From a virus, in IMG/VR virus record IMGVR_UViG_3300035158_000330, positions 1-32,048 of that record: 32,048 bases of DNA; one strand, 5' to 3'. This document shows, piece after piece, positions 291 through 16,830 of this stretch. The translations under genes and the position numbers were made by a program. Position 1 is the stretch's first letter, and every line of letters begins with the position of its first letter. Below the pieces are notes generated by a model. It had not been told where the DNA came from and did not search any database. It was given only the letters and a program-made list of their open reading frames with translations.

Positions 291-704
291 TCATTTAGTC
301 TTACCAGATTCGAGTGCTGCCACTCGACCCTCAAGCTGAGTTAGACGATCGTCAATACTTGGCGGTGGATGCCTGTTCGTCCAGGGAGTTTTCTCAACTT
401 CAATCTCGACTTCCTCTCCCTGGTCGTTCTTCTTTTTGATCTTGACCTTGCCGTCCTTGGAATCTCTCAGAGCCTTGAACTCTTCAATGCTACCAAGTCT
501 CCCTATCTCTGGATACATATCGCTCAAGATGTCCAGCTTGTATGACTCTTCTCTGGCATTTATATAGTCTTGCAGCTCCTGGCCTGACAGATTAGGGGGA
601 GCAACGTGGGTGAACTCGCACGAGTTGGCATCTACGTCAACCAGGAGAAACACCCATTGTGTACTATCGCCTACTGGCCTAGTCCCCTTGATTATTGTTC
701 CCAT
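291..704 (-). CDS. Hypothetical tail-fibre-associated protein, last gene of the prophage
   Basis: This 137-residue soluble protein is not assigned to a family. Its N-terminal half resembles short tail-fibre accessory proteins. The middle is highly charged with a Lys/Glu-rich stretch (about residues 85-105). The last 20 residues look like a short coiled coil (DDRLTQLEGRVAALES), as in trimeric fibre-associated or chaperone proteins. It follows the fibre gene by one base and ends the late operon before the terminator at 193-230. Fibre assembly or a minor fibre subunit is the likeliest role, by position only. The region is more AT-rich than the head genes. Confidence 0.6.
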   Translation of the reverse strand: MGTIIKGTRPVGDSTQWVFLLVDVDANSCEFTHVAPPNLSGQELQDYINAREESYKLDILSDMYPEIGRLGSIEEFKALRDSKDGKVKIKKKNDQGEEVEIEVEKTPWTNRHPPPSIDDRLTQLEGRVAALESGKTK

Positions 705-705
705 A

Positions 706-2565
706 CTATCTCATCTCCACTGCGTAGATTCTAGCATACACATTAGTCCAGGTATCGTTTCTAATTATATACACATTCCCATCGTTATCACACTTCAGCA
801 AACCAGTACAAACAACAGGAATGTTGGCTACTTGACTAAACATGTAGATCGGGTAAAACAACCCTGCTGGGTCTGCGGAAATGTACAGGTTCTTGCCTGC
901 TGTAGCGCAAGCACCTCGAATCTGAAGCAGGACAGACTGTGTATCCTTGGGTATTGCACCAGCAGATTGTGCCTCCAAATTAACGGTGGTGTCAGCAGAA
1001 ATGGTATCATTGTCATAATCTGTAAGGACTTTTTTCTGTTCAAGCCAGATCATTTTATTCTGCGGTGGCACGTAGTTGCCCTCGCCTATGGAGGAGCCGA
1101 AAACAAGCATGGGTTGGGAAATGTAGGCTATCGCTCCATTAATGATATGTTGAATTTTTACAATAAAGGCAGAAGGAGAAGAGTCAATAGTGCGAGTAGC
1201 TTCGATCCACTCATATGAACCCCCGCCTGTATGATAACTACTATTTGTTATGCCTACTCCATCTGCAATAGCAATTCTGGTACAATCCGGTGTGTCACAC
1301 TTTACCCAGGCACCAAAAGTAACAATACGCCCAGCAAATTTTTGATACCATTCAGGTTTGCTGCTAATGCTATATTGATATATAATTTCATAAGCCGCTG
1401 AAGCAGTTCCAACTATTTTAAGAGCATAGAATTCACCATCTTTCGTGTTAGACCCATTGTGTTCTCTATAAAGATTAAGGGCCGAATCTTTCCGCCACCC
1501 ATCCGGCCCCAAATTATCAGCCGCCACACAGCCAGGGGTGACTTCGTACAAAGTGACAGTATCAAAAAGCAGGGTCCCACTTTCCTCATCGGCTCCATAT
1601 AGATAGATATTGTAATTTCCACCATTTATTGCTTCAAATACACTCGATTCCGACTGCCACGAACCAGAAGTCACCAGGTCGGGAGTAAAATGTTCTGTCT
1701 CACCATTTTGGTAGACACTTGCTCTAACAGATTTTCCAGTTAGGGTTCCATTCTTTGCATAAAATATCAGTTTATATAATTTACCGGCGGTAAGAGTTAT
1801 GGGGTCCGCAATTGACTTAGACTGTGTAGGCTGGTGAGTCATCTCCAGACAATTACCACTTTGTCCTCCAGCAACACTTGCTATAGTACAAGCGCTTGGA
1901 GTCCATCCACTCGTATCGCTATCAAACCCGCCATTCGTAACAAGATCGCTCCCCACATTCTCCAACGTAGCATTGCTCCACACACCAAAGCCGGCATTGC
2001 TCAGAAGGTTGACTTGAGGCCCCAGGTAAGCGTCCTCGGAGACCACGCCGGCTGCTGTCCGACGCAGGACGGCGTGGGCTATTCCGTCCTTGAGCTTCGA
2101 AAGGGAGATCTCTCCGGCCGGGATCTGGCCGTCCGTAACCCCGCCGAGGATCACATCAACCGTGCGGAGATCCCAAAGGGTGCTCTCGTTTACGTTGCCC
2201 GAGCCATCCGTATCGAAACCGCCGATTTTCCGGCTGTTATTGGCGTTCCAGCCGGTGGGATAGGTAGAGTTCAGACTAATCTTAAAAACGGGCGTGTTGC
2301 TGCCATCCAGGGGATAACAGCCATATATGTGATAGGTCTGTGATGCTCCGAAACTACTGCCTTCATCCAGATCCGCCTCTGTGAGATCCACATCGCTTTC
2401 GATGCAAAAGACCGCACCGTCCACCCGCACGTAAAACTCGGCGTTGATCCTGACCGTCTTTGAGGCTTGCTTGGTCAGAAATTTGTTGTTGTAAGGCCCC
2501 TGCAGAACGTAATTGACCGCAAGGGCAATGCTGCCGGCAGTGTTCCAAAGGACGCTGTTGCCCAT
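706..2565 (-). CDS. Tail fibre / receptor-binding protein with two carbohydrate-binding-type domains
   Basis: This is a 619-residue protein in the fibre position. The N-terminal part (about 1-190) looks like a structural adaptor and contains the phrase DGQIPAGEISLSKLKDGIA, typical of phage fibre adaptor regions. Residues about 204-340 form a jelly-roll, CBM4/9-like module (NGGFDSDTSGW start, AGKLYKLIFYAKN core). A second, divergent jelly-roll follows (about 345-500) and then a C-terminal beta-rich domain. Binding of a cell-surface glycan during adsorption is inferred. The first module is duplicated, almost unchanged, in the gene at 5513-6670. A ribosome site AAGGAG precedes the ATG. The module DNA is AT-rich relative to its surroundings, which suggests acquisition. 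Confidence 0.75.
   Translation of the reverse strand: MGNSVLWNTAGSIALAVNYVLQGPYNNKFLTKQASKTVRINAEFYVRVDGAVFCIESDVDLTEADLDEGSSFGASQTYHIYGCYPLDGSNTPVFKISLNSTYPTGWNANNSRKIGGFDTDGSGNVNESTLWDLRTVDVILGGVTDGQIPAGEISLSKLKDGIAHAVLRRTAAGVVSEDAYLGPQVNLLSNAGFGVWSNATLENVGSDLVTNGGFDSDTSGWTPSACTIASVAGGQSGNCLEMTHQPTQSKSIADPITLTAGKLYKLIFYAKNGTLTGKSVRASVYQNGETEHFTPDLVTSGSWQSESSVFEAINGGNYNIYLYGADEESGTLLFDTVTLYEVTPGCVAADNLGPDGWRKDSALNLYREHNGSNTKDGEFYALKIVGTASAAYEIIYQYSISSKPEWYQKFAGRIVTFGAWVKCDTPDCTRIAIADGVGITNSSYHTGGGSYEWIEATRTIDSSPSAFIVKIQHIINGAIAYISQPMLVFGSSIGEGNYVPPQNKMIWLEQKKVLTDYDNDTISADTTVNLEAQSAGAIPKDTQSVLLQIRGACATAGKNLYISADPAGLFYPIYMFSQVANIPVVCTGLLKCDNDGNVYIIRNDTWTNVYARIYAVEMR
1549..1956 (-). repeat. 408-base domain repeat, copy A (in fibre gene)
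   Basis: This segment aligns without gaps to 6131-6538. By eye there are about 28 mismatches, some 21 of them packed into one roughly 40-base stretch, and the rest of the repeat is nearly identical. Both copies have the same orientation and frame. It encodes the carbohydrate-binding-type module and stands out as AT-rich. Confidence 0.95.
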
Positions 2566-2575
2566 CTCAAGCTCC

Positions 2576-3184
2576 TTATATGTGACTCAGGGCCTCGGAA
2601 AGCCTATCATGCTTTTCTTTCTGTTTACCAAACGCCTGGTGCATGTCGCGAAGCTCGTCTCCTTTCCGGGCGAGTTCTTCCCTCATGCGGGCGATCTCTT
2701 CTGCAATTTTTGTCTGCTGGGTAAGGATCATGGAGCGCCAGCTCGCAAGCTTTGACTCCAGTTCCTCTTGCCTGGCGCGAATATCGGCGAGGGCTGAGCC
2801 AGTATTTTCCGCCCTGGCTGCCAGGTCATCAATGCCGGCAACCAGCTTGTGAATCTGGAGAAGTTCATCTTGTTTTTCGTGACTGAGCCTCTTCAGCTCA
2901 TCAAGCGTAACCCCGACGCTGCGTATGTCGCTTTCGAGGGCGTTTAACGTGTCTTCAACCTCACGCACCCCGGCAATCTTGGCCCGAAGCGCCCGCTGGT
3001 TTTCTTTAATCTTTTCATTAAGCACGCCCTTGAGTTTTTTGAGCTCTGACTTTTTGAGATTGAGCCGCTTCAGGTCTGCGTCCATCAGTGCCTTGAGCAC
3101 AATCAATGCCCGGCGCGGCTCGACAGACTCGCAAATATTGATCACATCCTGCCTGGTAGCTATCTTGTCCGGGATGCCTTTCAT
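2576..3184 (-). CDS. Coiled-coil tail protein of unknown function
   Basis: This 202-residue protein starts at the ATG at 3184, chosen because AGGGAG lies eight bases upstream and because a longer reading would overlap the hub gene. The N-terminal 40 residues are compact (DKIATRQDVINICESVEPRRAL). The rest is long amphipathic helix rich in Lys, Glu, Leu and Arg (about 45-200), predicted to be coiled coil. It lies between hub and fibre genes, so a rod-like linker or fibre-attachment protein of the tail tip is plausible. No catalytic motif is visible and I do not recognise the family. Confidence 0.7.
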   Translation of the reverse strand: MKGIPDKIATRQDVINICESVEPRRALIVLKALMDADLKRLNLKKSELKKLKGVLNEKIKENQRALRAKIAGVREVEDTLNALESDIRSVGVTLDELKRLSHEKQDELLQIHKLVAGIDDLAARAENTGSALADIRARQEELESKLASWRSMILTQQTKIAEEIARMREELARKGDELRDMHQAFGKQKEKHDRLSEALSHI

Positions 3185-3203
3185 CGCTTGCTCCCTTCTC
3201 GGT

Positions 3204-5513
3204 TTAAGACGGCCACTCCTGGCCCTCAAGACGAACATTCTCCAGGTTGGGATCAACATCCGCCTGTATCAGGTCCCAGGTAATGCCGCTCCAAAAATCC
3301 CATGCCAGAGAAAAAGTATTGTCCGCCCCCAGGATCTTTCCTATCCAGGGCACCAGGACCTCAACGGTTCTCCATTCCTGTTTGAGCTGAGTCAAAAACC
3401 AGGCGACCCAATCCTGGGCCATCGCCTGAATTCTGCAGGCAGAAAGCCCCACCCGTTCGATGCGCTCTCCGTTTTTGCTGATAGATGTGGCATCGAAATC
3501 CGTCTCAACTCCGTCATAGGCTTCGAAGCCGCCGCCCTTGCGGTAGTCCCTCTTGTAATGCGCATAGATCCGGTTGCGAATGTCGATCTCGGGCGTGGAG
3601 CCGAAAATCGGCTCCGCCTTGCAATCGTCCTCGGCGAAAGTCCTGGACGGGCTCGGCGCTGAGCCCAAATAAATGAGCTCGAATTTCCCCCTCCATTCCA
3701 GGAATTTGGACCGGCACTGGAAAGAGATCTTGCGCAGGAGCTCATCTGCTTCCTGGGCAATCTCGTGCAGAATAAAGCTCGGCTTATAGGTCGTTCCATA
3801 AGAGGCGCCGGAAGTGGCAAACGAACTTCCGATATCACTCGCCGACTCGCCGAGAAGCTCAATCAGGATATGTTTGCACTGCTGGTCCCACCGCTCTATG
3901 AGCGCATTGGGCGTTCCGGTATAGGTTCCGCTGGCGTCGTCTTCATAGCCGTCCACATCTGCGGTGACCATCGAGCCGATCACCGTGTCTGCGACAGAAT
4001 TACCTGAGAGCAAGACGCCGGTGGCCGGGCCGGCAACGACGCCGGAGCCGTAATTGACCTGGCACCAGTAGACTTCATGAATCCTGAACTCGCCGTATAC
4101 GCCGTCGTGGTGAAAGTAGGCCGTGAGGTTCCACTCGTCGCCGCTAAAAGTCAGCTCGATAGTGTCCTTTACATCAACACCGCCGGTAGGAGGCACGGAT
4201 TGCCAAGCGGCCGTGCCTATCGTCACCTTGTCGTTGCCGGACGGGCTGGTGGACGAATACATAAACCTGACTTTTCTCCAGTTAACAGTCCCGCTTCCCG
4301 AATTGTTGAAAAAGACCCAGCAGTCGCCGTAGTTATCGCCCCCGGTAAGCCTTGAATACGTGTCCTCGTCGCCGTCAATCATGTTTCCGGGATTTACCCA
4401 TGCGCCGCTGTCGCCGCCTGCACCTGTGGGATATCTTTCGTCCGTGGTCGAGCCAGTGGTCTCGTGGGAGTGAGAGCCCTGGCTCACATCGATCCCTACC
4501 TGCTTGACAAGCTTTGGCAGCACGCTAAAAACGATAACTGCCGTGGCGCCATAGCCTGATTTTTGATCTCCGCTCTTACCTGTGTAAGCTGTATAGTCGC
4601 CGGAATCAACGAGCACCATCCTGCCGTCGGTCGACCTGGCACAAACAGCATTGATGGCCTTGACCGGATGTTTTGCCACCTCGTAGATGTATTCTGTGAG
4701 CACCTCGGCCACCACGGCCCCTTTCTTATGTGCCTGGGCGGTGGTCCCGTTGGCGCCTCTGGAATTTACTGTGAAGGTATTGCCCGATCTGGAAGTGACT
4801 GTGACCTGCTCCTCGTCAATCTGGATGGTCTGGGCGCCGGTCGGAAAGCTGGTCTTACTTATGCCGGAGATGGTGATTGTAGTAGCCGAATCAGTGATAT
4901 CAGCATCAAGGGTGTCAATGGCTCCGGTCAGCACGCCTCTGCATGGAACGTGATCAATGCTGCCATAGATTGTGTTTCTGATCTTGCCGAGATCGTCCGG
5001 GTCGGCGTTGGGAAAAGTGGCGGTGTCTACCACATGCAAGGGCAGGCGATTGCGCTTAGCGAGCAGCACATTGTGGACGTCTATTCTGAACTCGCGCCTG
5101 GTGATCGCGTACGGCTGGCCGCACACTCCCCGGAAGACGACCTGCTTCACATCGCTTGTAAAAGTCTCGCCGCTTTCAATCAACCTGAGCTCGTAAATCT
5201 TTATAGTTGAAAAGCAGAAGCGCTCGGCCGCATCCAGCTCGATCAAGCGATCATAGGTCAGGATCTGGCTGTTCTTGAACCGCAAGGAGATTCTCTGGTT
5301 CGACCCGAGCTCCACGCGTGCCAGTTCCACCGCGAGCTCGGAGAGGTCAAACAAATAATCCTCGTAATCCTGCGAGCTGGCGCCGTACTCGTATTTATAG
5401 TTGCGATCGGAGATATAAAGGGTCTTCGTGGGCAGCCCCCACTCTACCAGGTAGCGCCTCTCGAAGAAGGAAAGCTCAAGCCGCTCGTCTTGCGTGAGTG
5501 CTGGCAAACCCAT
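3204..5513 (-). CDS. Tail tip/hub protein (baseplate-hub-like, siphophage type)
   Basis: This 769-residue protein is encoded after the distal tail gene, with which it shares a TAATG overlap. The N-terminal 220 residues and C-terminal 180 residues look like the structural hub. In between are a short beta domain (about 195-270, TTITISGISKTSFPTGA), a type often inserted in tail-tip proteins, and a discoidin-like stretch (about 385-490) with GNMIDGDEDTYSRLTGGD, reminiscent of galactose-binding folds. Position after tape measure and Dit suits the protein that caps the tube and anchors fibres. The hub assignment rests on position and overall look. I see no peptidase or lysozyme motif. Confidence 0.65.
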   Translation of the reverse strand: MGLPALTQDERLELSFFERRYLVEWGLPTKTLYISDRNYKYEYGASSQDYEDYLFDLSELAVELARVELGSNQRISLRFKNSQILTYDRLIELDAAERFCFSTIKIYELRLIESGETFTSDVKQVVFRGVCGQPYAITRREFRIDVHNVLLAKRNRLPLHVVDTATFPNADPDDLGKIRNTIYGSIDHVPCRGVLTGAIDTLDADITDSATTITISGISKTSFPTGAQTIQIDEEQVTVTSRSGNTFTVNSRGANGTTAQAHKKGAVVAEVLTEYIYEVAKHPVKAINAVCARSTDGRMVLVDSGDYTAYTGKSGDQKSGYGATAVIVFSVLPKLVKQVGIDVSQGSHSHETTGSTTDERYPTGAGGDSGAWVNPGNMIDGDEDTYSRLTGGDNYGDCWVFFNNSGSGTVNWRKVRFMYSSTSPSGNDKVTIGTAAWQSVPPTGGVDVKDTIELTFSGDEWNLTAYFHHDGVYGEFRIHEVYWCQVNYGSGVVAGPATGVLLSGNSVADTVIGSMVTADVDGYEDDASGTYTGTPNALIERWDQQCKHILIELLGESASDIGSSFATSGASYGTTYKPSFILHEIAQEADELLRKISFQCRSKFLEWRGKFELIYLGSAPSPSRTFAEDDCKAEPIFGSTPEIDIRNRIYAHYKRDYRKGGGFEAYDGVETDFDATSISKNGERIERVGLSACRIQAMAQDWVAWFLTQLKQEWRTVEVLVPWIGKILGADNTFSLAWDFWSGITWDLIQADVDPNLENVRLEGQEWPS

Positions 5514-6670
5514 TATGCGGGCACCTCGATCATTTCAAGTTGCAGGTCGTACCTGTTCAGGCTAGGCCGGTCAAAAGGGCCGATGTTGGGATCTGCCAGG
5601 CTCATGAAATACCAATTGCCGTCCAGATCCTTCAGCCAGAAAGGTTTCCCTCTGCTGTGCGAAAAGAAAGCCTCCAGGTCGTCTCTCACCGAACTGGACT
5701 GCACCTTGCAGAGGTAGTTTCTGTATTCGCGATCCTCTCCTCTGATCAAAAAATAAGGCTTTCCGGAAAGCCCCTCGGACCTTTCCACGTTGCCCTGCGG
5801 GCCGTTCTGATAGCCCCAGGCGATCACATCTTGAAGCTCTATCTTTTTTCCCATCCAGAGCTCCGGGATCTCCGGGATCGCGGCGAGAGAGGTCAGCACC
5901 AGCCGCCAGTACCTTTTTGTCTGGGCGCTGGCTGTTTCCTTGATGATCGGACCCGCAGCGCCGGCCCACTCAGTCACCATGTTGTACCAGTCAACGTCGT
6001 TGGCGCTGTATTCCCAGTCCAGCTGGGCGCCGCCGGTGAGGTTATGACCGGCGGGGATGATCAGCGTGTCCACATCATGTTGCGTCGCCGCCCCCTGGTC
6101 CGCCTTGATGGTGTGGTCTGCGGGGGCCGTCAAAGTGACAGTATCAAAAAGCAGGGTCCCACTTTCCTCAACGGTTCCATATAGATAGATATTGTAATTT
6201 CCACCATTTATTGCTTCAAATACACTCGATTCCGACTGCCACGAACCAGAAGTCACCAGGTCGGGAGTAAAATGTTCTGTCTCGCCACTTTGGTGGACAC
6301 TTGCTCTAACAGATTTTCCAGTTAGGGTTCCATTCTTTGCATAAAATGTCAGTTTATATAATTTACCGGCGGTAAGAGGTATAGGGTCTGATTGTACGTA
6401 GCTAATACCAGCCTGGTGAGTCATCTCCAGACAATTACCACTTTGTCCTCCAGCAACACTTGCTATAGTACAAGCGTTTGGAGTCCATCCACTCGTATCG
6501 CTATCAAACCCGCCATTCGTAACAAGATCGCTCCCCACGCCCTTGAAGAGCTTGCCGATGTCCCGATCGTGCAGCCGCCATTTGGGATAGTCGCTGTTCT
6601 CGTTAGTCACGGTGACCGTGCTGTTTTCCAGAATGTTCCTATATAAGAGATAGAACGATGGCACGATCAT
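5513..6670 (-). CDS. Distal-tail (Dit-like) protein carrying an inserted carbohydrate-binding module
   Basis: This 385-residue protein starts inside the tape measure stop (ATGA overlap at 6667-6670), as expected for the gene after tape measure. The N-terminal about 44 residues are a short structural strap. Residues about 45-180 are the same jelly-roll module found in the fibre protein. The C-terminal 200 residues (GYQNGPQGNVERSEGLSGKP region, then PFDRPSLNRYDLQLEMIEV) look like the distal-tail ring protein of Mu-like siphophages. The module appears inserted between strap and core, giving the tail tip an extra ring of possible glycan-binding sites. The Dit assignment is by position and general resemblance. 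Confidence 0.65.
   Translation of the reverse strand: MIVPSFYLLYRNILENSTVTVTNENSDYPKWRLHDRDIGKLFKGVGSDLVTNGGFDSDTSGWTPNACTIASVAGGQSGNCLEMTHQAGISYVQSDPIPLTAGKLYKLTFYAKNGTLTGKSVRASVHQSGETEHFTPDLVTSGSWQSESSVFEAINGGNYNIYLYGTVEESGTLLFDTVTLTAPADHTIKADQGAATQHDVDTLIIPAGHNLTGGAQLDWEYSANDVDWYNMVTEWAGAAGPIIKETASAQTKRYWRLVLTSLAAIPEIPELWMGKKIELQDVIAWGYQNGPQGNVERSEGLSGKPYFLIRGEDREYRNYLCKVQSSSVRDDLEAFFSHSRGKPFWLKDLDGNWYFMSLADPNIGPFDRPSLNRYDLQLEMIEVPA
6131..6538 (-). repeat. 408-base domain repeat, copy B (in distal-tail gene)
   Basis: This is the gap-free partner of 1549-1956, in the same orientation and reading frame. Near-identity starts at CAAAGTGACAGT and ends at GCTCCCCAC in both copies and falls away at once on either side. 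The copies are 4582 bases apart. Confidence 0.95.
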
Positions 6671-8247
6671 AGCCCCATAGACTTCAAGGCGGCGGCGAAG
6701 TTGCCGGTGCCGTATTTGACCTCTTTGGCCAGAACCCCGCCAATCGCTTTGGCTGCCACCTCCGCCTGTTCCTGCGTGGGGGAGATACCCAGGCTCAATG
6801 GGACGATAACGGGTTGCAAAGTGCCGATTTGAGCGGGTCCTGGGGCCTCGTGGCGCCGAATCCTTTCGATAAAAGAGAGCTTCCTCGCCACTTGTGCTGA
6901 AGTGGTCGGCAACCCCACCGAGGTGCGGACACCGCTTGGGGCCTGGCCACCTGCGGATGATCCCATAACGACAGTGGTGCTGGCAGCAAGGGCTGCATTG
7001 TGGAGCTCGGCAAATTTGGATTTCGCGATCTCGATTGTTTCGCTGAGGGGTCTAACGGGAGACATGCGCCCCTTGATGTCGAACACAATCCCGGTCTTAT
7101 GGCCAAAGAATCTATTTACTGCGTCGCTAAGACGCCCGAAGGCGCTTGTGTTTCTTTCGATCTTAGCCGTCAGCTCATGACCAAAATACTTGTTGACCCT
7201 CGCCCCAATTACTTCGAGGCCGTGCGAAACTCGCATCAAATAAGGTTCAAGCGATTTGAACACATCCTTGACCCGTTTTCCCCATTCCTCTAGCACGTTC
7301 CAGCCGCTCAAAAGTACGTCTTTTAAGGACATCACTTTTGTTATGAGATTTTCCACACTTTGAAGAACTATCGGCCAGTTATCTTGAAACCAGGTGATTG
7401 AAACCGAAACGAACCCGGATATAGCCTCACTAGCTGACCTTGCCCACTCCAGCCAGCGCTCGCTGTCCAAAAAATTCGCGAGCCATTGATCGGCTTGTTC
7501 GAAATATGGCAGGAGCTTCTCTGCGACGTCTGCATGGATCCTCGAGATTGCCGCGCCGATCTTCTCCTTGATGTCTCCCCACACGTTGCCGAACCGCTGG
7601 ATCTTGCCGGCGTCCGTCGTTGCCAGGGCCTCCGCCTGGCCGCCGACCTGCTTTTCGATCTCGGAAAGAATGGCGGCAAAATCGCCGGCCTTCGCCACGT
7701 CCTCATCGATGGTGATGCCTACTCGGCGGAGCTCGCCGGCAAGACCCATCGACGCCTTGCCCAGCATGTTGGCCGCCTGGCGGGTGTCGCCTCCCATGAG
7801 CGCCGCCAGATCCAGCATCGCCCGGCTGGCACGCGGCATCAGGTCGTCGGTAATGTCCTTGTAGGTCATCAAAAACTTCATGCCAGAGAGCGTCGCCTCG
7901 TCGCCGAAAGTGGTCACCTTCTGCAATGCTGAGGCGTGCTCTTTCATGGCCTCGAAGGCGCCTTCCGAGTAACGCTCCATTGAGACCATCGCCTGCTTGA
8001 GCGTTGCCTCGGCCTGTTCCTGCACGCCGGCGAGGCGCTCGAACTCGCCGACTACCCGCTTGATCCCCCAGCCGGCCAGGGCGCCAATGGCGATGCTCTT
8101 GAGATTGAAAAGCTTCTTGCCGATGTTGCGGACGAAATCGCCCATCCGCTTGAACTGTTGCACCGCCTTTTCGGTGAATGACCGGACCTTTTCTCCGGCC
8201 TTCTCCACCGCTGCCTTGATGATGATCTCAACCGTGTTGTCAGGCAC
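6667..8247 (-). CDS. Tail tape measure protein
   Basis: This 526-residue helix-rich protein starts with GTG at 8247, preceded by GGAGGA, two bases before the stop of the GT frame. The N-terminal region (EKVRSFTEKAVQQFKRMGDF) and the Gly/Ala-rich helix at about 50-60 are typical. A TP901-type segment with FGDEATLSGMKFLMTY and MGGDTRQAANMLGKA (about 115-165) is characteristic of tape measures. The C-terminal third is Ala/Ser-rich. At the usual 1.5 angstroms per residue this length predicts a rather short tail of about 80 nm. It lies directly after the G/GT chaperones and before Dit. Confidence 0.88.
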   Translation of the reverse strand: MPDNTVEIIIKAAVEKAGEKVRSFTEKAVQQFKRMGDFVRNIGKKLFNLKSIAIGALAGWGIKRVVGEFERLAGVQEQAEATLKQAMVSMERYSEGAFEAMKEHASALQKVTTFGDEATLSGMKFLMTYKDITDDLMPRASRAMLDLAALMGGDTRQAANMLGKASMGLAGELRRVGITIDEDVAKAGDFAAILSEIEKQVGGQAEALATTDAGKIQRFGNVWGDIKEKIGAAISRIHADVAEKLLPYFEQADQWLANFLDSERWLEWARSASEAISGFVSVSITWFQDNWPIVLQSVENLITKVMSLKDVLLSGWNVLEEWGKRVKDVFKSLEPYLMRVSHGLEVIGARVNKYFGHELTAKIERNTSAFGRLSDAVNRFFGHKTGIVFDIKGRMSPVRPLSETIEIAKSKFAELHNAALAASTTVVMGSSAGGQAPSGVRTSVGLPTTSAQVARKLSFIERIRRHEAPGPAQIGTLQPVIVPLSLGISPTQEQAEVAAKAIGGVLAKEVKYGTGNFAAALKSMGL

Positions 8248-13701: not shown

Positions 13702-14511
13702 AGGATCACCTCCATGCTTAAAAGTTTTTGTTTCACATTTTGCCGCCAGCGCCCGGACATTCATCATCCGGGGCTGATTGGTAAGCGCCACATTGTAAAG
13801 CTCAACTATTCTGTTGTCGGACCGGCGGCGCCAGAACACCGGTGAGAAGTAGCGATATTCCCGTTTCTGAATGTAATTTGCGGCCTCCTCCGTCCAATCG
13901 GTGCGAGCCCATAGTCCCTGCTTGTCGCGCCATTCCAGTTCTTTTATCCAGCCGGCTGCCGGTGCCTTCTCTCCCGAAAGCGTCTGGTGTTCGTAGTCGA
14001 TCACCATGTCGTGCTCAAGGCTGTTAAAGTGGGCCAATACCAGCGCGGCCCCTTCCTCGTCCATAATCGCCGGTTCCTCGTCTTCGATTAGCACTTCGCC
14101 ATATGGAAAGAGCTGGAACCATTCAGGCGCCTCGGCGAGCTCGCCGGCGGTGCGAAGCGCGTAGAGTTTCGCCTCCTCCTTTTCCTTTCCGTCAAGAGCT
14201 TCGATGAGCCTGCCCGCAGCGGCGAAGACGTCGCCTTCTTTCTGCTGCCCCGCCCGTTGCCGGATGGCGATGAGCGCGGAGCGATAGACCTGCCCGCCCT
14301 TGCCGAACGGGTACTTGTAGCGCTCCTTGGTCTCCTCGTTGGCGCTGGTATCAACGGCCAAGTGCCAACGGGAGTATTCGTCCCAATCGGGAGGATCGCC
14401 TAGAATGCGGTTTTCATCCTCCGCCGAAATGCCCCAGTCTGCGGCCTTGTTGACCTTGCCCTGTCTGATCAGGCTCATGGCGTGTCTGTATCCGGCTTGA
14501 TTGAGCTTCAT
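13069..14511 (-). CDS. Mu I-like head maturation protease with C-terminal scaffold
   Basis: This 480-residue protein has three parts. Residues 1-125 are a charged helical region common in such proteins (YRHAMSLIRQGKVNKAADW). About 125-265 is the protease domain, with HDMVIDYEHQTLSGEKAPAA containing the conserved His and Ser region, and ALTNQPRM near its end. Residues 271-480 are a helix-rich scaffold that includes a coiled coil. In Mu the protease I contains an in-frame scaffold Z at its C-terminus, and the same organisation is visible here. The start overlaps the MuF stop (ATGA), so translation is probably coupled to ribosomes finishing the full-length MuF frame. Confidence 0.88.
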   Translation of the reverse strand: MKLNQAGYRHAMSLIRQGKVNKAADWGISAEDENRILGDPPDWDEYSRWHLAVDTSANEETKERYKYPFGKGGQVYRSALIAIRQRAGQQKEGDVFAAAGRLIEALDGKEKEEAKLYALRTAGELAEAPEWFQLFPYGEVLIEDEEPAIMDEEGAALVLAHFNSLEHDMVIDYEHQTLSGEKAPAAGWIKELEWRDKQGLWARTDWTEEAANYIQKREYRYFSPVFWRRRSDNRIVELYNVALTNQPRMMNVRALAAKCETKTFKHGGDPMFEKLKKLLGLAKEASEEEMVQAVEGLVAKNKELEEAGQVVACKEILEALEVDQSDDKDKVVAKVQELRKAQGKKSDLETELQSLKKDHEALKHKWDERTADELIAKATAKGQITPAQVEEYGREMALKDPERFKKVVLGRREYSEVPLKDLPPEDPDAGGGTPQGKMDRLIAKKQKENKDLSYQDAMNLVAAENPELAESYLEAGRSKG

Positions 14512-15257
14512 GATTCACCTCTCAATTCATCTTCCAACATCTTTCTGGCTTCCGGTTCGTACTTATCGAGATCCGGCTGCCAGGAATCCAGCCCGGCCTT
14601 GCCAGGGTTGTAGCGCCAACCCTCGTCCGGCCTCTCGTTCACTCCCCGCGTCTCTTCTTTCAGGCCCCTTTGCTCCATCTGCCGCACGGACAGGGTCGTC
14701 ACATAGCAGCGTCACCCGAATCCGTTCGGCGGATACCACTGGTCCCAAAATGGGTGGTCCGCGTGATAGACCTTGTTGTGCTGATTAACGTGATCCTCAC
14801 GGCTAGTCTTGTATCGAACGGATTTGTACTGCCAATATGGCCTCCGTTCTTTGACCTCCTGCATCTGTTTGTAGCGGCCGACACTATAGGAGGTCTGAAG
14901 GTTCGCCCGGTAGATGGTCTCCAGCCGCCAGGGAGTGAGCCGCTTGACCACCGTGCCGTCTGGGAGTGTTATCTCGGCATCCACGCCGCTCGGCGCAAAC
15001 CAGCCCCTGCGTTCCAGCAGCTTTCCGAGGTCTTTCTTGAACTGCCCTAGGCTGATTCCATCGGCCAGGGCCTTATCCACCGCCTCGCGGACGTCCACCA
15101 GGACATCCATCGAGGTCACACGCGCCACCGTAAAAGAGCGAGCGTGCGCCGCCTGCCACACGTCCCGCCAGCTCTCTAGCGAAAATTCAAAGCCCTTCTG
15201 CCGGAAGAAATCTATCGCCTCCTGGAAGGGCAGGTTTCCGTAATTGACTTCAGGCAC
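14508..15257 (-). CDS. MuF-like head morphogenesis protein, split by an in-frame TGA (candidate selenoprotein)
   Basis: Read through, this is a 249-residue MuF (SPP1 gp7-type) minor head protein that associates with the portal. The N-terminal portion is helical. The conserved C-terminal part reads YRANLQTSYSVGRY, HPFWDQWYPPNGFG, then TGA (codon 182, at 14712-14714), then RCYVTTLSVRQMEQRGL and DEGWRYNPGKAG. Homologues have Cys at the TGA position (GF[NG]CRC). The frame after TGA is open for 67 codons, keeps family motifs, and ends in ATGA overlap with gene I. Either UGA is decoded as selenocysteine (Sec182-Arg-Cys184) or a recent nonsense change truncates F at 181 residues. It is shorter than Mu F itself. 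Confidence 0.8.
14679..14693 (-). promoter_or_regulatory. Candidate bacterial SECIS hairpin downstream of the MuF TGA
   Basis: On the minus strand, 18 bases after the TGA, CTGTC-CGTGC-GGCAG folds into a five-base-pair stem with one G-U pair and a five-base loop. Two more C-G pairs are possible below a two-base bulge. The loop begins 23 bases after the TGA and has G as its second base. This fits the relaxed bacterial SECIS rules (loop 3-14 nt, a G in the first two loop bases, stem of at least 4 bp, loop 16-37 nt from UGA). Short hairpins are common by chance, so this is supporting rather than decisive. Confidence 0.5.
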
Positions 15258-16830
15258 TGTCTCCCTCTGCGGCGGCGAAGCCCGTCAGCCCCGCCGCGAA
15301 CACGGCCCGCGTAAGCAGCTCCTGGAAGTCGCTGCTGTCCAGATTCGGATAGAGCCCGTAAATCTTCTCGCCGATCTCCTCCAGGGACCCGGCGCTCTCG
15401 ATCATCTCCAGAACGGGCTCCAGGAGTTTCGAGATTGCCTCCTCGGCCTCTTGCGCCCCCTGGGACGAAAGTTCGTCTGCGTCATCCTGACCGAAACGTT
15501 CAGGGGCCGATTTCAGAGCATAGAACCGCTTTTTCAGCGACGTGGGCATTGTCGGAGTCTGCAGAAGCGTCTCTCCCTCCTGCGGCATAGGCACGCTGAA
15601 GCGCTCGGATACGTGTTCCGCCGATATGGGCTGCCCCATCTCCGCGAGGTTCTTGTAAACCTCCGATAGTTCCTTGAGGTCCTCCGGCTCCTGCAGGTAG
15701 AACCGGAACCACGGCACCGGCGCGTCCCAGCCGAAATTGAAGCCCACAAGCGGTCTCAGTAACTGCATCCTCACGGTGTTGGACAGTGCCCAACTATCGG
15801 ATTTCACCAGGTCCAGCCGCACTTCGTTGTGCGTCTTGCTTGCTGCAAAGGAGCCCCTTTCTCCCACCTCTGTGGTCAACGTGGCGCCTACGATGGCTTT
15901 ACTCATTTCCCGGTTGCAGAAGGACGCTAGGGTATTGAATATGTTTTCCTTGGTTGCAGCCTTGAGCGCCTCAATGAATTCGATTTCGGTGTTCTTACTG
16001 ATAATGCCCGCTGCATCGGTGCCGAGCGATTGAATAGCATCGCGTAGCGCTTCCTTGTCCTCCTTTGATGCACCCGGTTCGTATTTCCCAACCCGCAGCG
16101 GCATGCCGAAAACTTCCGCAAAACGAACCCAGTCTTTGATGGAATAGTTTTTGAACAGATACATCCAGGCGCAAACCCGCAGCATCCCTACCCGCGTGTC
16201 GTAACCGCTCCTGGCCTTATGGCGGTGGTAGATCACCTTGAAAGGTTGGATATCTTCGCCGCCCCGGTTCTCTTCAGTGATCAGCTTCGGCTCCAGGCTG
16301 TCCACGAAAGTGAACCGTTTCTGGTGAATCCATTTGAGCTTGGCCGGAATAACCTTGCCGCCACTTACTTCCCAGACGATTTCGCATCCAGAAAAGCCCT
16401 TGCCGATGGCGTCCAAAAGGTCAAAAAGCGCATCCTCGAAAGAAGGCAGTGAAAAGGTCACGTCCTGACAGAACTCCAGCACCTTGTCTGTTTGTGCGGG
16501 TCTGCCCCGGCTCCTCTTGGTGGCGGGAGTCCTGGCCCCCTCCTCGTAAGGCAAAATATCGTAGTCCAGCCCCATCACTGCGTTTTTGCGTTTCAAGATC
16601 TCTGCAGAAAGATGAGTGTCCTTTTCCTCCATTTCCTCAAAGAGTTCAGCCTGACTGTAAACATCGCCCTGATCTGCAAACTTCAGATAGGAGGCAAGCT
16701 TTTGCGGCGTGAGTCCTTCGGATGGATAGCTGCTCCAGCGGTCACTGATCGCGACGGTTGATATTTCTTTCGTATCAGGCTTCTTGAGGTCCTCGATCGG
16801 CCTGCCGAACTGGTCAACCAGCATTGCCAT
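15250..16830 (-). CDS. Portal protein, DUF935 (Mu gp29-like)
   Basis: This 526-residue protein carries family landmarks: DRWSSYPSEGLTPQKLASYL near the N-terminus, EMEEKDTHLSAEILKRKNAV (about 65-85), YLFKNYSIKDWVRFAEVFGMPLRVGKYEPGA (about 225-255), and FCNREMSKAIVGATLTTEVG (about 305-325). It forms the dodecameric DNA channel at the head vertex. It follows the large terminase with a one-base overlap and overlaps MuF by eight bases, the standard Mu order. Confidence 0.93.
   Translation of the reverse strand: MAMLVDQFGRPIEDLKKPDTKEISTVAISDRWSSYPSEGLTPQKLASYLKFADQGDVYSQAELFEEMEEKDTHLSAEILKRKNAVMGLDYDILPYEEGARTPATKRSRGRPAQTDKVLEFCQDVTFSLPSFEDALFDLLDAIGKGFSGCEIVWEVSGGKVIPAKLKWIHQKRFTFVDSLEPKLITEENRGGEDIQPFKVIYHRHKARSGYDTRVGMLRVCAWMYLFKNYSIKDWVRFAEVFGMPLRVGKYEPGASKEDKEALRDAIQSLGTDAAGIISKNTEIEFIEALKAATKENIFNTLASFCNREMSKAIVGATLTTEVGERGSFAASKTHNEVRLDLVKSDSWALSNTVRMQLLRPLVGFNFGWDAPVPWFRFYLQEPEDLKELSEVYKNLAEMGQPISAEHVSERFSVPMPQEGETLLQTPTMPTSLKKRFYALKSAPERFGQDDADELSSQGAQEAEEAISKLLEPVLEMIESAGSLEEIGEKIYGLYPNLDSSDFQELLTRAVFAAGLTGFAAAEGDSA

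Follow-up and report, generated by a model that had tools for sequence, protein, structure and literature searches.

A carbohydrate-binding module present in two tail genes of a Mu-like phage, probably copied from the fibre gene into the gene at the distal-tail position

In dairy phages, carbohydrate-binding modules (CBMs) in loops of the distal tail protein (Dit) were reported to bind the host recognised by the receptor-binding protein, though with lower affinity (PMC7291167), and in the 936 phages 20 of 30 Dit decorations were found to accompany a decoration of the major tail protein (PMC6669499). Such 'evolved Dits' are known mainly from phages of Gram-positive bacteria, and the origin of their binding modules is usually not visible. 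The window analysed here, i.e. the whole stretch of DNA, is the entire 32,048-base virus record IMGVR_UViG_3300035158_000330. It was found to carry a CBM-type module of 408 bases twice, once in the tail fibre gene and once in a tail gene that is called the Dit-position gene by its location alone. The likely donor of a Dit-position module, its insertion point, relatives with an empty site and the first changes after copying can thus be studied together in one small genome. The two copies and their genes are as follows.

1549..1956, minus strand: copy A, a CBM_4_9 module of 136 codons inside the tail fibre gene
6131..6538, minus strand: copy B, a CBM_4_9 module of 136 codons inserted after codon 44 of the Dit-position gene
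706..2565, minus strand: tail fibre gene, 619 residues, with an Mtd second domain (PF21916) near the N-terminus; the probable module donor
5513..6670, minus strand: Dit-position tail gene, 385 residues (249 without the module); the recipient of the insertion

The initial annotation of the window had noted a nearly identical repeat, in the same orientation and frame, in two otherwise unrelated tail proteins, and the repeat is real. Ungapped alignment of 1549-1956 with 6131-6538 gave 380 identical bases out of 408 (93.1%), with 108 bases as the longest identical run, and the identity stopped abruptly at both edges, as had been described. Each copy lies on the minus strand and is read in codon phase 0 of the gene that contains it; the spacing of the copies, 4582 bases, is not a multiple of three, so they do not belong to one frame of the contig. 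In a blind search, the two copies were the sole repeat of at least 30 bases in the window; copy A matched the window in two places only, the second with an expect value (E) of 1.5e-183. When the Dit-position protein was compared with the fibre locus by BLAST, the module alone matched.

The family CBM_4_9 (Pfam PF02018) matched both copies, with 29.5 and 30.5 bits against a cut-off of 25.9. In the AlphaFold2 model of the Dit-position protein (alignment of 16 rows), in which the repeat comprises residues 45-180, only the module was well predicted: block means were 86-93 over residues 61-180 and 69 over residues 51-60. Comparison with 995 chains by VIA-align matched it to CBM16-1 (2zew_B; Z 17.2, root-mean-square deviation (rmsd) 2.4, 137 aligned) and to CBM22-1 (Z 17.1-17.0). 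The fibre model, built on an alignment of 15 rows, was poor overall, with block means of 74-87 for module residues 241-340; its module matched CBM22-1 (Z 15.5, rmsd 3.4, 143 aligned) and CBM4 (1gu3, Z 15.1). Because profile scores and structure matches agree for both copies, each is, as modelled, one complete, autonomously folding CBM_4_9 domain with a beta-sandwich of the CBM4/16/22 type, and the repeat edges lie at about the predicted domain edges. Structure prediction, which had been proposed as a check, thus bears out the earlier assignment to a glycan-binding type of domain, and the module presumably binds a glycan.

Relatives of the Dit-position gene were found in L016 (from IMG/VR) and in L017/L018, of which L018 is a Deltaproteobacteria metagenome-assembled genome (MAG). 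L017 and L018 are one phage seen twice (the 5829 bases compared were identical), and L017, L019, L022, L026 and L018, being the same or near-identical phage, were counted once. The Dit-position proteins of L016 and L018 are 80% and 77% identical to that of the window, and the flanking gene DNA of the relatives is 71-73% identical. Both proteins lack the module: residue 44 joins residue 181, with flanks of equal length, which suggests that the window gene gained 136 codons with no net loss of its own sequence. When 395 genomes of the phylum were searched with a profile, six gave matches, namely the L018 genome and five further distant homologues, and the site was empty in 7/7 distinct relatives found. 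In L028, L030 and L031 no part of the profile match lies before the insertion point (it starts at profile positions 47, 45 and 51, respectively). In L030 and L031 the frame before the match has <60 residues, too short for the 136-residue module; the stop-to-stop frame of L028 is longer, and to take the module as absent there assumes a start like that of L031. The comparison of relatives suggested earlier therefore found none with the Dit copy and no pair of anciently diverged copies.

The fibre of L018 is 45% identical to the window fibre and has a divergent counterpart of the module in the same place (BLASTP E 9e-7, 32% over 72 columns). The GC content of the module copies (43.9 and 44.1%) fits the C-terminal half of the fibre (43.5%) and the L018 fibre module (44.3%); the Dit-position gene has 57.8% after the module and 50.8% before it, and the window 56.2%. 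Because the relatives lack the Dit copy, the fibre relative keeps a counterpart and the GC content fits the fibre, the Dit copy is probably a derived in-frame insertion of 408 bases with the fibre as likely donor, the direction following from the empty site. Recent copying, as originally proposed, is thereby supported and given a probable direction. A transposon-like insertion was considered and rejected: visual inspection of the junctions showed neither a target duplication nor terminal inverted repeats, and the window contains no inverted repeats of at least 30 bases. The fibre gene itself was observed to be mosaic in composition (706-1956 vs 1957-2565), with a GC content of 55.7% before the module and 43.5% after it.

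The differences between the copies were mostly confined to one patch.

1807..1830, minus strand: divergent 24-base patch of copy A, residues PTQSKSIA
6389..6412, minus strand: divergent 24-base patch of copy B, residues AGISYVQS

Nineteen of the 28 mismatches fell within these 24 bases, whereas 5000 random placements never put more than 10 into any 24-base window; 21 (75%) fell within 34 bases (module offsets 126-159), in agreement with the initial estimate of about three quarters in one 40-base patch. The changed protein block is PTQSKSIADPIT versus AGISYVQSDPIP; the block had been recognised correctly, with the first string quoted one letter short. Inside the patch 19 of 24 bases differ, and the gapped similarity was no better than that of shuffles (p 0.23). 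Because the copies are there as unlike as unrelated sequence, the patch looks like a replaced block rather than accumulated point changes. An origin by inversion or small indels was unsupported (gapped p 0.23, inverted p 0.69 for the 24-base blocks), and every 11-mer of either patch occurred in the window only at its own site.

In the Dit-position protein the patch comprises residues 87-94, modelled as a loop (86-89) and a strand (90-94). When residues were counted backwards, with no gaps, from the conserved G-x-x-Y motif (G102-K-L-Y105 in this protein, G57-T-T-Y60 in C. fimi CBM4-1), the patch came to lie on CBM4-1 residues 42-49; the profile alignment itself puts a short insertion in this segment. 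For CBM4-1 simulated with cellopentaose, hydrogen bonds to the ligand were reported for Tyr43 (main chain) and Asn50 (PMC6267901). In a termite-gut xylanase with two CBM4 domains, alanine at Y213 or Y378 abolished binding and alanine at Q216 or Q381 weakened it (PMC7848910); by our own reading of the primer sequence context in that paper, these residues would lie in the patch segment. A literature search on CBM4-2 W69 or E72 gave no relevant paper, and these residues were not used as evidence. Among 14 phage modules this segment, which lies between conserved strands, differs in both length and sequence. The copy B patch includes a tyrosine and a glutamine; aromatic residues are missing from that of copy A. 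Judged by the family alignment, the patch appears to fall in the segment that contacts the ligand in CBM4 domains, and the two copies likely differ in binding. The avidity suggested in the initial annotation is possible; since the difference sits in this contact segment, altered specificity is at least as plausible.

The history that we favour, with somewhat better than even confidence, is copying from the fibre gene to the Dit-position gene in one phage or a very close sister, followed by replacement of a block in one copy. A complete CBM_4_9 domain of the host-recognition fibre would have been copied in frame into the Dit-position protein, within one phage or from a very close sister and with no net loss at the target, and the recipient would thereby have become an 'evolved Dit'. 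The added modules on the tail-tip ring might give weak glycan contacts beside those of the fibre. Later, one of the copies would have had a block of its predicted ligand-contact loop and strand exchanged, and the copies would thus probably differ in affinity or specificity.

Several points weigh against this history. Donor and recipient were deduced from one genome, and the fibre as ancestral home is seen in one relative, L018, whose fibre module scored below the Pfam cut-off (13.7 bits vs 25.9). The initial annotation had named the host proteins fibre and distal-tail protein. The fibre stood, with the Mtd second domain at 63.1 bits against a cut-off of 24.6, and so did the distal-tail position; no Dit family matched the Dit-position protein in Pfam, PHROGs or NCBIfam, and its core was poorly predicted, with a predicted local distance difference test (pLDDT) score mostly <50. 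Relative to the known CBM4 contacts, the patch may be misplaced by a few residues in the alignment. Outside the patch, 9 of 384 bases differ, 7 of them non-synonymous and 2 synonymous; the proportions of changed sites are equal (pN 0.024, pS 0.022), giving no sign of selection for function.

A possible, though tentative, alternative is that the copies came from two related donors: one of them would have been supplied, during a mixed infection, by a sister phage whose module was a different allele, and the patch would be an allelic difference that existed beforehand. Patches as unlike as unrelated sequence, between flanks diverged by ∼2%, are expected for loop-swapping alleles, and CBM_4_9 modules are scattered over the tail proteins of many phages (13 loci). 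However, no near-identical module or second allele was found elsewhere in IMG/VR or INPHARED, although close relatives may escape such a search. IMG/VR gave no match with the module flanks fixed and the patch open, nor with a shared 28-base string; INPHARED phages gave none by module-region DNA or by Dit-position protein; and the nearest module elsewhere was 39% identical over its full length. The hub protein was found in 1/85 genomes of the class of the L018 genome and the fibre segment in 1/395 phylum genomes, in both cases the L018 genome itself, and the fibre-segment profile found only the L017 contig in IMG/VR. In one virus contig, L008, two divergent CBM_4_9-like modules were observed ∼1 kb apart (4860-6253).

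It is somewhat more doubtful that the insertion is a tolerated passenger, i.e. recent, neutral, without a role in adsorption and bound to be lost. The equal pN and pS outside the patch would fit this, as would the seven relatives that do without the module. The module is nevertheless a complete fold, in frame and stop-free; its change is mostly in one loop rather than random, and the CBM-decorated Dits of dairy phages bind the host (PMC7291167).

Continuing gene conversion, which the initial annotation had offered beside recent copying, would make the repeat an old duplication kept homogeneous, and this is improbable. The high identity and the identical runs of up to 108 bases would agree with it. 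Against it, no insertion is present in relatives whose flanking gene is 71-73% identical in DNA, mismatches beyond the patch occur all along the module, and the patch itself was not homogenised; gene conversion was rejected as the main account. A full-text literature search for gene conversion of duplicated bacteriophage tail fiber paralogs found nothing, and one on domain duplication in tail fibers gave a single match, the BACON repeats of crAssphage.

A chimeric assembly, for which it may be said that the record is a single virus contig, is very unlikely: it would need two joins at the Dit-position junctions, where the fibre and the empty site have no sequence in common, although misjoins by assemblers arise at common sequence. 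The copies also differ at 28 bases, and the flanking tail genes are in the relatives' order. Formation of the patch by a diversity-generating retroelement (DGR) or similar targeted mutagenesis is just as remote and was rejected, because, although a genuine DGR accompanies the homologous fibre gene of a sibling phage (L020), no reverse transcriptase (RT) was seen in the window, L016 or L017 contigs, and the patch differences involve all four bases in both copies and are not adenine-specific.

The sibling contig L020 (4.6 kb) has the same fibre N-terminus as the window (66% over 139 columns) with a different C-terminus, which ends in a variable repeat (VR). Its DGR (L020:1656-4638) consists of the VR at 3446-3560, a template repeat (TR) 186 bases downstream and, after the TR, the RT (RVT_1; phrog_1423); 20 of 23 VR-TR differences are at template adenines. 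No RVT_1 match was found in the window, which may be incomplete at its end. Because VR, TR and RT occur with a homologous fibre in L020, one sibling appears to use a DGR on its fibre where the window phage uses CBM modules. No Pfam match to a C-type lectin domain was found at the C-terminus of the window fibre, which was poorly predicted. In L016, the gene in the fibre place (13942-16647) is unrelated to the window fibre; many ADLAHGHALDNVAL-like repeats were noted in it, and a stretch resembling zinc carboxypeptidase by eye.

The window phage is transposable and Mu-like, as the Mu transposase C-terminal domain, Mu portal, Mu protein F, Mu-like protease I and tail tube protein scored above Pfam cut-offs. 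The remaining genes of the tail cluster are as follows.

6667..8247, minus strand: tail tape measure gene; its location gives 5513-6670 the Dit position
3204..5513, minus strand: tail hub (Tal-like) gene, 769 residues, conserved in relatives; synteny anchor
2576-3259, minus strand: gene of a 227-residue protein, between hub and fibre
291-704, minus strand: gene of a 137-residue protein, after the fibre

On the minus strand the order is thus tape measure, 385-residue protein, hub-like 769-residue protein, 227-residue protein, 619-residue fibre and 137-residue protein. The order of the flanking tail genes is that of the relatives, where the counterpart of the 385-residue protein is likewise encoded between tape measure and hub. 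Past the last tail gene, a 75-base stretch (129-202) matches L018:16374-16447 at 73%; the latter sits just past the last prophage-like gene and may be a conserved phage end. It had been pointed out that the direct repeats could recombine and delete the 4.6 kb between them. This is possible through the 108-base identical run, but the hub and the 227-codon gene would be lost, together with the remainder of the Dit-position gene and the fibre N-terminus; with the hub and parts of two tail genes gone, tail-defective genomes rather than a useful switch are to be expected.

A broader and speculative idea, which we hold with little confidence, is a tail tip of two specificities. One glycan-binding scaffold would be used at two levels with an exchanged 8-codon loop cassette, so that the fibre and the Dit ring might read different surface glycans without a retroelement, and the fibre slot of the clade might alternate between DGR-diversified domains and CBM cassettes. 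The locus makes it testable whether a duplicated binding module first adds avidity or first changes specificity, and the DGR-bearing sibling allows two ways of changing host recognition to be compared in one phage group.

Compared with the evolved Dits of Lactobacillus phage J-1, the lactococcal 936 and P335 groups and Oenococcus phage OE33PA (PMC7291167, PMC8540738, PMC9692632), the window protein is alike in having a CBM-fold domain in a protein between tape measure and hub, with counterparts that lack the CBM. The domain of the OE33PA Dit was predicted as CBM4. The CBM of the window protein is inserted in a core that occurs without it in 7/7 distinct relatives found (L028 by its assumed start). 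The window differs in that its phage is Mu-like and has a relative that is a prophage in a Deltaproteobacteria MAG, in that the recipient matches no Dit family model, and in that a 93% identical copy in the fibre of the same phage allows a donor to be named. With the CBM4, CBM16 and CBM22 modules of bacterial glycanases the module shares the fold and the location of the patch relative to G-x-x-Y, but sequence identity is low (about 9-21% among the rows listed). With the Mtd fibre of BPP-1 and its DGR, the window fibre shares the Mtd second domain (PF21916), and sibling L020 keeps VR, TR and RT; unlike that fibre, it has CBM-type modules after the shared N-terminus, and no RT was seen. As in the recent domain shuffling described for phage neck and receptor-binding proteins (Smug et al. 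2023, PMC10684548), a fragment is common to otherwise unrelated tail proteins; in the window, by contrast, the two proteins belong to a single genome, and relatives show the site without the insertion. A search that left most subscription literature outside found no paper in which the fibre and Dit of one phage share a near-identical CBM. CBM-decorated Dits and domain shuffling being known already, the novelty is modest and consists of the same-genome donor, the visible empty site and the one replaced loop.

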